IMG/VR virus record: IMGVR_UViG_3300030104_002167
Span: 1-36,757 of that record
Strand: one strand, 5' to 3'
DNA length: 36,757 nt
DNA from: a virus
How positions within the stretch are numbered: position 1 is the stretch's first letter; each line of letters starts with the position of its first letter. Shown piece by piece: positions 5,695-18,768 of this stretch. The notes below the pieces were generated by a model that was not told the DNA's origin, made no database searches, and was given only the letters and a program-made list of their open reading frames with translations. The position numbers and the translations under genes were made by a program.

Positions 5695-6675
5695 TTACTT
5701 TCGTTGTTGAGATTTAAGATTAATCATGTCAAGTATCGCAGACGATGCATCATTAAGATGCCCTGTCTTTTTCAACTTGCCAATCTTTTGTCTTATGGCT
5801 TCTCTACCAGAACTCGTACCTGATTTTGCTATACCAGCTTTAACAACTTTAGGAGCATTAGCTACTTTTTTTTGAACAATAGGTTTTCTATCTTTCAAAC
5901 TTTGGTAACTCATTGCATCCTTTGCAACCATAAGAAATCTATGGTCTGCAAGCTGTCCTATTTCAGAATCATTAAATCCATAATTTCGTAACGAATTACG
6001 CATATTAAGTTTGAATGTATCTGCTTTGTTTGGATCAGCAAACTCTGGTATTTTTGTAGCTGCTAACTCTCGCTGTGTTGCAAGGAACTCATTGTATTGA
6101 GATTGTTGAGCTTCTTTTGCTTTAGATCTGACTTCCTCTAGCTGCCTGTTTTGTTGTCGTAACTGGTAGTCCAGTCTAGCTGCAGCTGTGGGATCTTCGT
6201 CATAAAGTTTTTGAAGATCTTCACTTCCTTGTTGTTGTCTGACAGTTGCGTCAGCAGTTGCAATTAAATCATTTAACTCTGATAGTCGAGTATCATAAGA
6301 TTGACGCAAACTTGTCTTTTGAGTTTCAAGATCTCTCTTTTCTAACCCTAAAGAATGAGTTTTTTGTCTATAATCTGAGTCTCTAGAATAACCTGCTTTC
6401 AGCTCATCGAGGGTGACTTCCAACTCTTGACCTTGTACTTTGACTCGGTGGAGTTCTGGTTCCTCTAATTCTGTTTGAGTTTCTTCTGTTGTCTCAGTAT
6501 TTTCAGTAACCTGCTCCTTAGTTCCTTCAGACTCTGGTTGACTTTCTGGAGCTTCTTGTTTCTCAAGTGTTTCTGATGGTTCTGCTTTTGTTTCTGTTTT
6601 CTGATTATCCTCTTTAGGATTCAATAGTCCAGAAATTTTTTCAGCAGCACCTTGAACAGTTTGTTCTTGTGCCAT
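5695..6675 (-). CDS. Capsid scaffolding protein
   Basis: 326 residues. The first ~75 are acidic and low-complexity (Glu, Thr, Pro; for example ETLEKQEAPESQPESEGTKE). A coiled coil follows at about 90-200 (EKRDLETQKTSLRQSY, LRQQNRQLEEVRSKAKEAQQ), and the C-terminus is basic (AIRQKIGKLKKTGHLN). This charge layout is typical of phage scaffolds, whose basic C-terminal end binds the capsid shell. It lies directly upstream of the capsid gene on the same strand. It has no protease-like motif, so the scaffold may be removed whole or by another protease. Confidence 0.85.
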   Translation of the reverse strand: MAQEQTVQGAAEKISGLLNPKEDNQKTETKAEPSETLEKQEAPESQPESEGTKEQVTENTETTEETQTELEEPELHRVKVQGQELEVTLDELKAGYSRDSDYRQKTHSLGLEKRDLETQKTSLRQSYDTRLSELNDLIATADATVRQQQGSEDLQKLYDEDPTAAARLDYQLRQQNRQLEEVRSKAKEAQQSQYNEFLATQRELAATKIPEFADPNKADTFKLNMRNSLRNYGFNDSEIGQLADHRFLMVAKDAMSYQSLKDRKPIVQKKVANAPKVVKAGIAKSGTSSGREAIRQKIGKLKKTGHLNDASSAILDMINLKSQQRK

Positions 6676-6719
6676 AACGTTCCTTTCTTGTTGGTTGACG
6701 TAATTGAAGTTTCGTTAGA

Positions 6720-6983
6720 TTAACTTCGTTTATTTAATTGATCTAACTCTTGTTGAGTTAGTTTTCCACTTGCTATGATGCTATGTAAATGACCTCTAAT
6801 TTTGTCTACTAGATTGTAGGCTACCCAAAGGTATGTACGCTTGTCATTCTCAGTGAAACTTGTATTGAAAATTTCTTGTTTATATATTTCAAGAAGATCT
6901 TCGAATGCTGTTTTAAGCAGGGGATCGTTTAGGAGTTGTTCGGCTCTCTTGCCCTCCCTGACTTGTTTTTCCTTGTTGTCCAT
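6720..6983 (-). CDS. Hypothetical helical protein (87 aa) overlapping the portal end
   Basis: The product starts MDNKEKQVREGKRAEQLLND and contains NDKRTYLWVAYNLVDKIRGH. It is all helical and polar, and overlaps the last 71 bases of the portal gene in another frame. Small helical proteins in this slot occur in related marine podoviruses. Role unknown; an assembly helper is possible. Confidence 0.72.
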   Translation of the reverse strand: MDNKEKQVREGKRAEQLLNDPLLKTAFEDLLEIYKQEIFNTSFTENDKRTYLWVAYNLVDKIRGHLHSIIASGKLTQQELDQLNKRS

Positions 6984-13522: not shown

Positions 13523-13822
13523 ATGTTCAAAGTAATACTAAAAAACAAATTCAGAGAAAGGAAGATAGATCTAAGCGTAGCAGTAAGAGTGATGTATAAA
13601 CAGAAGTTTACAGGATCTATTCAACAAGAACATATTAAATGGTGGAAACCATATTGGATTAAACCAATAATGCTCAAAATACTCTATCCAAAGCAAGGGT
13701 GGATAACGTTAGTTAAAGTATTTAGAGAGGGTAAGCCATCAGTAAGAGTAATAACTCGACCAATCAGCTCCGACAAGCGAGAGCTGCTTGTTCTTAAACA
13801 TAATTATGGAAAGGAGGACTAA
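13523..13822 (+). CDS. Hypothetical basic protein (99 aa)
   Basis: Starts MFKVILKNKFRERKIDLSVA. Basic, with an aromatic centre (HIKWWKPYWIKPIMLKILYP). A competing ATG at 13519 in another frame gives only 26 codons and is judged not to be the gene. The stop overlaps the start of the regulator gene, giving coupled translation. Not recognised. Confidence 0.62.
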   Translation: MFKVILKNKFRERKIDLSVAVRVMYKQKFTGSIQQEHIKWWKPYWIKPIMLKILYPKQGWITLVKVFREGKPSVRVITRPISSDKRELLVLKHNYGKED

Positions 13823-14166
13823 TGGGTAAAAGACCAAAAGGTGAGTTGGAACTATTTAAATTTATAGGACAACAAATCAAAAAAGCTAGAATTGGTGATA
13901 AAGTAGGTCATACAATTATGACTCAAACTACACTAGCGAATGCTATAGGAGTAACGTTCCAACAAGTGCAGAAATACGAAAAAGGAACTAATAGAGTACC
14001 TATAGATAAGTTATTAGCAATAGGTATTAAAACTAAAATAGAAGATATTAATTACTTTTTACCACATAATATTACTAAAGAAGATAAAATTGAAGTTTTT
14101 AGTAATTTATCAAAACCTGGTGAACGCACAGATATAAGTTCAATAGAAGATATGGAGGTGAAATAA
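13822..14166 (+). CDS. Cro/CI-type helix-turn-helix regulator
   Basis: 114 residues. The HTH lies at about 34-66: TQTTLANAIGVTFQQVQKYE then KGTNRVPIDKLLAIG, an XRE-type pattern in which TTLANAIGV is helix 2 and TFQQVQKYEKG the recognition helix. A ribosome site AAAGGAGG precedes it. It is the only clear transcription factor in the early operon. It may act on dyads in the control region at 12351-12537 (inference). The C-terminus is acidic and probably mediates dimerisation or is disordered. Confidence 0.88.
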   Translation: MGKRPKGELELFKFIGQQIKKARIGDKVGHTIMTQTTLANAIGVTFQQVQKYEKGTNRVPIDKLLAIGIKTKIEDINYFLPHNITKEDKIEVFSNLSKPGERTDISSIEDMEVK

Positions 14167-16461: not shown

Positions 16462-16664
16462 TGGAAACTATTAAAGATGATGTAAAGAAAATTAAAAAGT
16501 TACTTGGTTTGAATGGTGATGAGTCAGATCCTAAGAAATATTACAATGTAACAGATGTCTTAATAGCATTAATGCATTTTTGTGATAAAAATAAAAATGA
16601 GTATAATTGGGATTTTGAACATCATTTAGAAAGTGCAAAAGAAGGATATAAGGAGGAAAAATGA
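16458..16664 (+). CDS. Hypothetical protein (68 aa)
   Basis: Two adjacent ATGs at 16458 and 16461; either may be used, and AAGGATAT lies upstream. Product starts MMETIKDDVKKIKKLLGLNG and ends EYNWDFEHHLESAKEGYKEE plus K. Overlaps the next ATG (ATGA). No family recognised. Confidence 0.6.
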   Translation: MMETIKDDVKKIKKLLGLNGDESDPKKYYNVTDVLIALMHFCDKNKNEYNWDFEHHLESAKEGYKEEK

Positions 16665-16834
16665 GTGATATGGAAAGATCGTTAAGAGCTATGGTTGCTA
16701 CTAAGCAATTAGAAATCGATAAACTAAAACGTAAAATAAAGGAGATGGAAGATGACTATAAAAACAGACTCGGAAATATTGAGAATAGAAAAAAGAATAA
16801 GAGGTCTAAACCGAGTGACGTCAGCGATAAATGA
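16661..16834 (+). CDS. Hypothetical coiled-coil protein (57 aa), overlapping the next gene
   Basis: ATG after AAGGAGGAAAA, an excellent site. Starts MSDMERSLRAMVATKQLEID; helical and charged, with heptads in KLKRKIKEMEDDYKNRL. The last 83 bases are also the first part of the next gene in another frame. Ribosome site and ATGA coupling support it. Confidence 0.6.
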   Translation: MSDMERSLRAMVATKQLEIDKLKRKIKEMEDDYKNRLGNIENRKKNKRSKPSDVSDK

Positions 16835-17030
16835 TTTATCTATTTATGGAATTTTTTATGGAAATTATCCAGAATTAGTTAAAGTTTTAGAACACGCTAA
16901 AGATCATGCTAAAGAAGAATTAAAAAAATCTAAAAATATGTTGGAGTATATTAACCAAGATATTAAAGAAGAACATCAAGAAGCACCACTTAACGAAGTT
17001 GCTGAAGCATATTTAGATAAACGAATTTAA
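16752..17030 (+). CDS. Hypothetical helical protein (92 aa), last gene of the early block
   Basis: ATG after AAAGGAGATGGAAG. Starts MTIKTDSEILRIEKRIRGLN; mostly helical, ends NEVAEAYLDKRI. It starts inside the previous gene and is the last coding unit before the structured non-coding stretch at 17031. Not recognised. Confidence 0.65.
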   Translation: MTIKTDSEILRIEKRIRGLNRVTSAINDLSIYGIFYGNYPELVKVLEHAKDHAKEELKKSKNMLEYINQDIKEEHQEAPLNEVAEAYLDKRI

Positions 17031-17300
17031 GAATTCTATTTTAAGGTATGTGCCAAATAATCTAGGATCCTGAGCCTTAAATAGATAGAGCCTGGTGGGA
17101 GACTGCCAGGTTCGCTAATTATAATGACACACCCATTGTAGTTCGCAACTACACCTGAATAGGAAGGCGTATGATCGGTGATCCTATTGAATTATAATTG
17201 GCTAAAATAGTACCTGACTAAGATTATATCGTAAAGGAGGTTGTTAGGCTAAGTTTTGTTCCAGGATATAATATGAGAAAATAAGCTATTTAAATTTTGA
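17031..17300 (+). ncRNA. Candidate structured non-coding RNA
   Basis: No gene is visible, but the plus-strand transcript folds well. Helix 1: CTATTTTAAGG (17036-17046) with CCTTAAATAG (17075-17084), one bulge. Helix 2: CCTGGTGG/CTGCCAGG (17091-17110) closed by a GNRA tetraloop GAGA. Helix 3: GCTAATTATAAT (17114-17125) with ATTATAATTGGC (17191-17202), twelve pairs. It encloses hairpins TGTAGTT/AACTACA (17137-17153) and AATAGGA/TCCTATT (17158-17188). Helix 4: ATTATATC (17223-17230) with GATATAAT (17265-17272). CCTGAC/GTTAGG (17213-17218 with 17243-17248) would make a pseudoknot. G-U pairs in helices 2 and 3 would be A-C mismatches on the minus strand, fixing the strand. No Rfam family is recognised; 5' end is unknown. 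Confidence 0.68.
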
Positions 17301-17301
17301 T

Positions 17302-17350
17302 GGGTACATAGTTAAAGATTTTTACTTTTCTAAAGACTATGTGCCCTTTT
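17302..17350 (+). terminator. Terminator between convergent transcripts
   Basis: GGGTACATAGT (17302-17312) pairs with ACTATGTGCCC (17336-17346) over eleven pairs with one T-G wobble, loop of 23 bases, then TTTT. The wobble favours the plus strand, though the minus strand also has a T-run after it. It ends the early operon together with the candidate RNA, and faces the minus-strand gene at 17349. Confidence 0.78.
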
Positions 17351-17651
17351 AAATTTCTGTAATCTTAATTACCCAAGATTTAGGAATCATAGTACGATCT
17401 CCAAAGGTAATAGTTCCATCATCTTCTTTATCATAACTTGCAAACAATTTAATTGATTTACGATCTTTATGAAAGATCCATCCTTCATTAACAGGATTAG
17501 CAAGTTTCATATTTTTAAATTCTTTTTCAGATGCCCAAGCTGAATCACTTAAAGCATCTACCCATTCAACACGTACTTTAGTATAGGGTATGTCGTTAGT
17601 ATCTGAATCTTTAATAGATTTCTTTTTTTTAGTGTAACGTTTTTTTGTCAT
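17349..17651 (-). CDS. Hypothetical basic-start protein (100 aa)
   Basis: Start chosen at 17651 (MTKKRYTKKKKS); the longer frame from 17684 only adds residues inside the neighbour. The N-terminus is a Lys cluster; the rest has alternating strands (YTKVRVEWVDALSDSAWASE, RSIKLFASYDKEDDG, MIPKSWVIKITEI). Last gene of the minus-strand island; its stop falls at the terminator. Not recognised. Confidence 0.65.
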   Translation of the reverse strand: MTKKRYTKKKKSIKDSDTNDIPYTKVRVEWVDALSDSAWASEKEFKNMKLANPVNEGWIFHKDRKSIKLFASYDKEDDGTITFGDRTMIPKSWVIKITEI

Positions 17652-17895
17652 GAGCTGCCCATATGTAATGATCAAAGTCGTCAATTGAAGGTATTATTTC
17701 ATTACCTTCTTCTTCAAAAACTAATTGTAAATAAGTGCTATAGATTATAGCTAAAGCCATAGCATCTGCAGCTTTCAATGATAAATGTGGATTTTGTTTT
17801 TTTATAAAATCTCCAATAGCATCAGGTTTAACACCTGTCAAAAATTTATCAGAATATACTTTTTTTCTATTTGGAAACTTTAATATTTTGCTCAT
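17629..17895 (-). CDS. Hypothetical protein (88 aa)
   Basis: Start chosen at 17895 (MSKILKFPNRKKVY), ten bases after AGAGG. Helical middle (LSLKAADAMALAIIYSTYLQ), acidic loop, and C-terminal DDFDHYIWAAHDKKTLH. Overlaps the next gene by 23 bases. Not recognised; lies in the island with the HNH and DnaA-like genes. Confidence 0.6.
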   Translation of the reverse strand: MSKILKFPNRKKVYSDKFLTGVKPDAIGDFIKKQNPHLSLKAADAMALAIIYSTYLQLVFEEEGNEIIPSIDDFDHYIWAAHDKKTLH

Positions 17896-17930: not shown

Positions 17931-18353
17931 TTATTTGGGTTGCAGTAGAAAATCAACGTTATTTTGTATCTTAGGTACAAGTTTGTTATAAACATTAATC
18001 CATAATTGACTATCATCATAGAAAAAATTCTTATTTTTCCACATATTATGATAATGATCATAAAAAATACGAGATAATTCTATAGGTTCTATGTCTATTT
18101 TTGTCCAAAAATCACGTTCAGACATACCACAATTATGTAATTGATGATGATGTTTAACACATAATGGAAGTGTAAATTGATCACCAACTTTTAAACCAAA
18201 ACCTCTCGGAATAGCATAAGTTATATGATGAGCATTACACCCATTTTGTTGACAGAGTATACAAGGATTAGAAGCTACCCATTTTAGGTACTTTTTGTCT
18301 TTGAGTCTTAGTTCCTTGATTTCTGATAGTGTGTCGCACTTTCGTGTAGCCAT
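17931..18353 (-). CDS. HNH-type endonuclease
   Basis: 140 residues from the ATG at 18353. Zinc site CILC (C31, C34) and the pair C40-C65, catalytic segment AHHITYAIPRGFGLK (H42, H43), and LPLCVKHHHQLH (H68-H70, H73). The layout C-x2-C, HH, G-G-K-D, PLC-HHHQLH resembles the DUF968/Ref-like phage HNH family involved in recombination or DNA processing. The start is uncertain since no good ribosome site is seen; the first 85 bases overlap the upstream gene. Role in DNA cutting is well supported, substrate unknown. Confidence 0.85.
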   Translation of the reverse strand: MATRKCDTLSEIKELRLKDKKYLKWVASNPCILCQQNGCNAHHITYAIPRGFGLKVGDQFTLPLCVKHHHQLHNCGMSERDFWTKIDIEPIELSRIFYDHYHNMWKNKNFFYDDSQLWINVYNKLVPKIQNNVDFLLQPK

Positions 18354-18768
18354 AATATACTGAGAGTCTAGCAAGACCTTCGTGAGTTCTATTAGATGCT
18401 TTACGTTCTGTAAGTCCTAATATATGTGCTAACTCTATAATACCATAATTAAACCAGCAAAATAATTTCATACATTCTGCTAATTGTTTACCTATTTCTT
18501 CATCACAATCTTTAACTGCCATAGCAGCACCAAGAGATGAAGTAATAAAATCTGTATTAGATCCATCTATACGATCTTTAAGAACATTACCAGTTCCACC
18601 TCCCATAAGTTCACACATTAATCTATAACGTGAACCTGCCTCATATTCTTCCATAGATATGAGTTTTCGGTGAAACATATACATTAGTCTAGACTCTCTA
18701 ATGTTTAACCATACTTTTTTTTTATCTCGTATGGTTGAGATTAATTCAGGTTTTTCAATCTGACGCAT
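18268..18768 (-). CDS. DUF6456-like protein
   Basis: 166 residues, starting MRQIEKPELISTIRDKKKVW. A first helical half with ESRLMYMFHRKLISMEEYEA, then AVKDCDEEIGKQLAECMKLF, and a C-terminal LARLSVYYGYTK. The order of these blocks, and the LxxVG-C-(F)-E-G-L-A-hYG style ending, resemble the DUF6456 family of alphaproteobacteria and their phages, whose function is unknown. The GLTERKASNRTHEGLARL part looks like a helix-turn-helix, so transcription or replication control is plausible. Gene order with a DnaA-like protein supports this. Confidence 0.65.
   Translation of the reverse strand: MRQIEKPELISTIRDKKKVWLNIRESRLMYMFHRKLISMEEYEAGSRYRLMCELMGGGTGNVLKDRIDGSNTDFITSSLGAAMAVKDCDEEIGKQLAECMKLFCWFNYGIIELAHILGLTERKASNRTHEGLARLSVYYGYTKVRHTIRNQGTKTQRQKVPKMGSF

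Follow-up and report, generated by a model that had tools for sequence, protein, structure and literature searches.

Gene context and fold of the RNA locus

The window, that is, the whole stretch of DNA analyzed here, comprises positions 1 to 36,757 of IMG/VR record IMGVR_UViG_3300030104_002167, from an uncultivated virus. Judged from its predicted proteins, this virus is a relative of the phages of Pelagibacter (SAR11), the most abundant bacteria in the ocean; its terminase large subunit is ~50% identical to the homologue in Pelagibacter phage HTVC106P, its major capsid protein is SU10-like, and a portal gene was also found. The RNA locus is a 318-nt gap that separates two convergent operons, the first on the plus strand and the second on the minus strand. 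A preliminary description, made from the sequence alone, had noted that no gene fits at 17031-17350, and indeed open reading frames (ORFs) of at least 20 amino acids (aa) are absent from 17031-17348. The locus holds the following features.

16752-17030, plus strand: gene for a 92-aa protein of unknown function, last of the plus-strand operon (ORF list); its stop codon abuts the RNA
17032-17037, plus strand: AAUUCU box, whose UCU part is the 5' base of P1; AUUCU columns invariant in 66 distinct cores
17035-17085, plus strand: P1 hairpin (UCUAUUU 17035-17041 with AAAUAGA 17079-17085; AAGG 17043-17046 with CCUU 17075-17078)
17064-17071, plus strand: perfect 8-nt palindromic loop AGGAUCCU at the P1 apex, a proposed symmetric kissing site
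17088-17113, plus strand: P2 hairpin, 11 pairs with a GAGA (GNRA) tetraloop at 17099-17102 (covariation, fold)
17114-17202, plus strand: module Ma, a 12-pair helix (17114-17125/17191-17202) closing a two-hairpin multiloop (z, −3.50)
17204-17291, plus strand: module Mc, an H-type pseudoknot inside an outer AAAUAG/CUAUUU stem (compensatory changes in both helices)
17302-17346, plus strand: module Md, terminal hairpin GGGUACAUAGU/ACUAUGUGCCC, 11 to 12 pairs (z, −4.59)
17349-17684, minus strand: convergent gene (phrog_25889) of unknown function, last of the minus-strand operon; its stop codon bounds the RNA locus

Pfam and PHROG searches with the upstream 92-aa protein gave no match. Homologues of its gene precede the RNA in 95 related loci, and homologues of the convergent gene bound it in 94. 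The operon encodes a helix-turn-helix (HTH) protein (13822-14166), an HNH endonuclease gene (phrog_96) lies near the RNA locus (17931-18374, minus strand), and elsewhere the window carries a 2OG-Fe(II) oxygenase gene (PF13759; 21839-22519, plus strand); ARAGORN found no tRNA genes in the window.

The window's RNA has the architecture P1h-P2-Ma-Mc-Md. The plus strand of the gap folds at −87.1 kcal/mol, versus −69.2 ± 5.2 kcal/mol in dinucleotide shuffles (z, −3.43; 0/100), and the minus strand at a z of −1.14, so that the fold signal is strand-specific. The structured, noncoding plus-strand RNA that the preliminary description placed downstream of the operon thus outperforms a shuffled-sequence control, and covariation in more than 60 distinct relatives strongly supports it. 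Taken separately, P1 plus P2 gave a z of −2.18, Ma of −3.50, Md of −4.59, and Mc of 0.17; Mc alone is no better than its shuffles, as expected if its true fold is the pseudoknot, which is absent from the nested minimum free energy (MFE) structure.

Most of the helices proposed earlier were recovered. The 12-pair helix is present in the MFE fold, and Ma recurs in another locus of unrelated phage context (L308; 97.6% identity over 82 nt) with one compensatory change in that helix, from A-U to G-C. In L308 (700-1500, minus strand), Ma stands beside a P1c-type module, before a same-strand gene, without a convergent junction or the P2 chassis described below. The GNRA helix, drawn at first with 8 pairs at 17091-17110, is the 11-pair P2. 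The suspected pseudoknot (17213-17218/17243-17248 crossing 17223-17230/17265-17272) has compensatory changes in both helices across five relatives, with 96.9% of cells paired; Mc was found in L018, L019, L077, L239, and L288. The terminator assigned to 17302-17350 is confirmed as a strong hairpin but not as a terminator: the Md loop is large, a scan of 16600-17500 for intrinsic terminators gave no terminator-like site (GC-rich hairpin plus U tract), and the last modules of relatives have no U tract. The palindromic loop at 17064-17071 and the modular organization had been overlooked.

A conserved chassis with exchangeable modules

A search with the convergent protein yielded 78 loci, whose gaps hold related, strikingly modular sequence. 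Scanning with a DNA pattern of the P2 hairpin gave more than 100 stretches among the matches listed, of which about 18, viral-contig matches with GATAAGTCC, were excluded as a coding motif of other phages; further pattern scans and a phage collection supplied additional relatives. Across 84,980 genomes of bacteria and archaea, the chassis pattern matched just once, by chance, in a Treponema metagenome-assembled genome at a sequence unable to form P2; of the close relatives in INPHARED, HTVC111P and HTVC026P alone have the chassis. Within the collections searched, the RNA family therefore appears, on sequence patterns, confined to these phages. Protein coding was rejected, as the gap has no ORF and modules of unrelated length replace each other.

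The chassis consists of AAUUCU, P1 (which starts with UCU and ends with AGA), UA, P2, and then GYUAA or similar, and is nearly always present. In 66 distinct cores, aligned with the variable P1 apex cut out and drawn from contigs of overlapping marine samples, hence not fully independent, 95.5% of cells are paired and the covariation score is 0.571; shuffles score 0.151 ± 0.013, and slid controls do not exceed 0.131. Adding four members of greater divergence raises pairing to 97.0% and the score to 0.614 and lengthens P2 to 11 pairs. P2 is paired in 100% of cells across 22 distinct relatives, uses G-U pairs, and has compensatory changes in 8 of its 11 pairs; the P1 basal stem has them in 4 of 7. 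The GAGA tetraloop of P2 is invariant, while its closing pair flips from G-C to C-G in HTVC026P and L048. Since P2 was the search pattern, its searched letters are invariant in part because the search required them, although some of these letters do change (L047, L048, L330, and HTVC026P).

The chassis occurs in two unrelated gene contexts, nearly always at convergent junctions, and so is not bound to one neighboring protein. The cultured phages HTVC111P (L160) and HTVC026P (L295) carry it beside unrelated genes. These phages exemplify types A and B, in which the P1 loop has GCUCC and no clear palindrome; the GCUCC-like motif is kept amid variable surroundings in L160, L295, L164, and L193, without covariation with the P2 loop. 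Kissing between GCUCC of the P1 loop and GGGAG of the P2 loop was considered for these types and rejected, because in HTVC026P the P2 loop has changed to GCGAGAGU whereas AGCUCCC is still present. On these sequences, a GAGA tetraloop with a flipped closing pair accounts for P2 better than such kissing.

The P1 apex is filled by at least 13 recurrent sequence families (P1h in the window, common to L007 and L282), and P2 is followed by zero to three modules from about 15 families. The total repertoire exceeds 25 module families, and signature scanning resolved 56 architectures; what lies downstream takes six different forms with P1a and five each with P1c and P1k. Loci L021 and L039 are empty alleles, devoid of the RNA, in which the two convergent genes overlap at their stop codons, and L040 has modules in the absence of the P1/P2 chassis; the locus is therefore accessory and mosaic. 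Module junctions have an AAATTT-like sequence in common.

Fragments from the 3' end of the convergent gene (AAATTTCTGTAATTTT) occur within the RNA arrays of L018 (~6390-6910, minus strand) and L017 (after 6318), and L018 has Mc in two copies; the sequences suggest that arrays may gain modules by recombination at gene ends. After P2, L160 (HTVC111P type) has a module with a 12-nt palindrome, GUUUAUAUAAAC, and a similar module with a different apex occurs in L043, from a window-type phage. A hairpin-like element (AATCCAGAGCCTCG...CGAGGTTCTGAAAGA) ~0.9 to 1.2 kb before the convergent gene's end in L004, L010, L014, and others was set aside, since it lies inside a conserved ORF of 85 to 89 aa and is probably just coding.

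Palindromic loops

Outside types A and B, perfect palindromes of 6 to 16 nt occur at P1 apices; self-pairing loops are thus not universal in the family. The longest P1-apex palindrome, summed over 23 clusters, came to 176 nt (dinucleotide shuffles, 124 ± 8.8 nt; 0/300), and a palindrome of at least 8 nt is present in 16 of the 23 clusters (4.4 expected). The palindromes lie mostly in the P1 apical loop and are more open than their own hairpin's average in 14 of 15 P1 types tested.

In module Mb, six perfect 8-nt palindromes (AUCUAGAU, GUCUAGAC, ACAAUUGU, ACGAUCGU, ACCAUGGU, and GAAUAUUC) replace one another between constant flanks and in one register, with covariation in 4/4 palindrome pairs. 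Together with its H-type pseudoknot, Mb has 22 pairs, 10 of them compensatory, and 154/154 cells paired, a score reached by 0/500 shuffles. Palindromes also switch in P1f (GGGAUCCC/UCGUACGA), P1d (AGUGCACU/AGCUAGCU), P1c (GAGAUCUC/GGUAUACC/GGGAUUCC), P1a (GGUACC/GGAUCC), P1g (GACGUC/GAUAUC), and Mhp1 (GGUAUACC/GAUAUAUC), although several families comprise two variants only and are weak singly. In the seven switching families, which were recognized by eye before testing, pair states at the palindrome center were compensatory in 16 cases and broken in none (other centers, 0 to 0.38 compensatory and 1.4 to 7.9 broken). The window's own palindrome is identical in all three P1h members, so that the evidence for switching comes from sister modules. 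Predicted dimer energies were nondiscriminating, because any self-complementary hairpin can dimerize.

At the level of sequence, these comparisons show several loops to be under selection for self-complementarity while their sequence changes. Adjacent positions cannot pair within one chain for steric reasons, so that self-complementarity kept in this way points to pairing between two copies, and palindrome switching reads as a signature of symmetric RNA-RNA kissing.

Candidate self-assembly and alternative explanations

An undescribed, modular family of structured RNAs in pelagiphages is almost certainly real; the relatives compared establish its secondary structures, invariant GAGA, module shuffling, and empty alleles, along with the selection for self-complementarity. 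No mention of such an RNA was found in the pelagiphage literature searched. We consider it probable (roughly 0.7) that copies of this phage RNA kiss homotypically via their palindromic loops.

A plain 3'-untranslated-region element, which ends transcription or keeps exonucleases off the early transcript at a convergent junction and has palindromes as a by-product, is an unlikely explanation. It would suit a core flanked by convergent genes at almost every locus and strong hairpins that follow a stop codon, but the scan found no intrinsic terminator, L021 and L039 live without any RNA, and a simple barrier needs no invariant GAGA, pseudoknots, dozens of modules, or conserved self-complementarity. 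We regard as improbable a role of the palindromes at the DNA level (operators, restriction/methylation sites, or recombination sites), with RNA structure incidental. The six-base palindromes do look like restriction sites and dimeric operators, and both the HTH protein of the operon and the sequence common to module junctions would fit such a role; yet the palindromes sit at fixed registers in RNA loops between covarying helices, including an H-type pseudoknot, they vary freely where a protein site would be conserved, and the G-U pairs of P2 and the strand-specific fold signal point to RNA.

Pairing of the palindromic loops inside one RNA, between two loops with an identical palindrome or by alternative refolding, is very improbable. 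Two RNAs could accommodate it, L024, whose P1c and Mhp1 each contain GGUAUACC, and L023, whose P1 and Mhp1 share GUAUAC, whereas most have one palindromic module or differing palindromes per module (L005, L004, L139, and L029), and the pairing of two different loops would not require each to be self-complementary. There is hardly any chance that the RNA is a member of GOLLD, ROOL, IMES, or another ornate family already known, even though it is phage borne, marine, and ornate, and GOLLD env-38 is also of marine origin (PMC12286853). Rfam 15 gave no family above the gathering cutoff in the window and 13 related loci, and none at an E value of ≤10 in 16900-17450; the GOLLD, ROOL, IMES, and OLE covariance models did not match the pelagiphage RNA, which is also much smaller and lies in a window without tRNA genes. 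GOLLD or IMES, each raised as a possible identity in the preliminary description, is thereby discounted. A group I intron was likewise rejected: AUCCUGAGCC at 17067-17076 resembled element Q, but there was no Rfam match at an E value of ≤10, and relatives do not have the string.

The reading that we prefer is a self-specific assembly that would work like OLE, GOLLD, and ROOL without belonging to them. In OLE loop L9.3 and GOLLD loop L21a, palindrome switching argued for symmetric intermolecular loops, and the contacts were seen by cryo-electron microscopy (PMC12286853). GOLLD is likewise a phage-encoded ornate RNA with a symmetric kissing loop backed by palindrome switching (PMC12286853). This RNA of phages and prophages forms a 14-mer nanocage, but it exceeds 800 nt, its 3' half is conserved, it is often near tRNAs, and it is not a shuffled set of modules, whereas the pelagiphage RNA has ~320 nt and lies in a window without tRNA genes; no sequence or covariance match joins the two. 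The dimeric OLE switches its L9.3 loop among the tetranucleotides GGCC, GAUC, and AGCU (PMC12286853); it is bacterial and unrelated, with 4-nt palindromes in one loop as against 6 to 16 nt in many modules here. ROOL, an octameric nanocage, is also a noncoding RNA of phages and prophages that self-assembles by loop-loop contacts, which in the pelagiphage RNA we infer, and it differs in architecture and size. At the dimerization initiation site of HIV-1, the 6-nt apical-loop palindrome GUGCAC, also present in P1d, drives symmetric dimerization (PMC7357161), but this is one site in a viral genomic RNA, without modular exchange or a GNRA chassis. Designed RNA nanostars have modular arms whose palindromic kissing loops program homotypic, mutually orthogonal assembly (PMC11289419). 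Nanostars are synthetic, whereas the pelagiphage RNA is natural and may either condense or form discrete oligomers.

The locus encodes an accessory, structured plus-strand RNA in a convergent gap, most simply the terminal part of the transcript made from the upstream operon. A constant chassis (AAUUCU, the P1 stalk, P2-GAGA, and GYUAA) is combined with domains that are exchanged in two places, the apex of P1 and the stretch beyond P2. Under the preferred reading, copies would pair through palindromic loops into homodimers or higher oligomers, and RNAs with several palindromic modules (e.g., L005, L004, and L139) may form higher assemblies; the "scaffold-like" role floated in the preliminary description is compatible with this palindrome evidence. 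For the GAGA loop, the likeliest role is docking into a helix receptor, either of its own molecule or of another. As palindromes differ between phages, assembly might be self-specific, and the RNA copies of one virus look able to associate mutually, but not with most relatives' RNAs. The weakest step, which includes this self-specificity, is that assembly may, in the course of infection, protect, concentrate, or sequester RNA or some partner, a function already suggested for GOLLD and ROOL. We put at even odds the broader proposition that pelagiphages have a natural kit of RNA parts that can be exchanged, in which a constant docking hairpin is joined to shuffled modules with mutually distinct kissing loops. 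Each phage RNA would then have a code of its own by which to recognize itself and assemble homotypically, as a cage, filament, or condensate, in the infected SAR11 cell.

To our knowledge, only a handful of homo-oligomeric natural RNAs are known. If the proposal is true, SAR11 phages would hold a new homo-oligomeric RNA family, small and modular enough to dissect, and a natural counterpart to engineered nanostars with orthogonal kissing loops. With its variants, one could test why phages encode RNAs that assemble with themselves, through palindrome swaps, module moves, and comparison of natural null alleles, and two cultured phages have the chassis.
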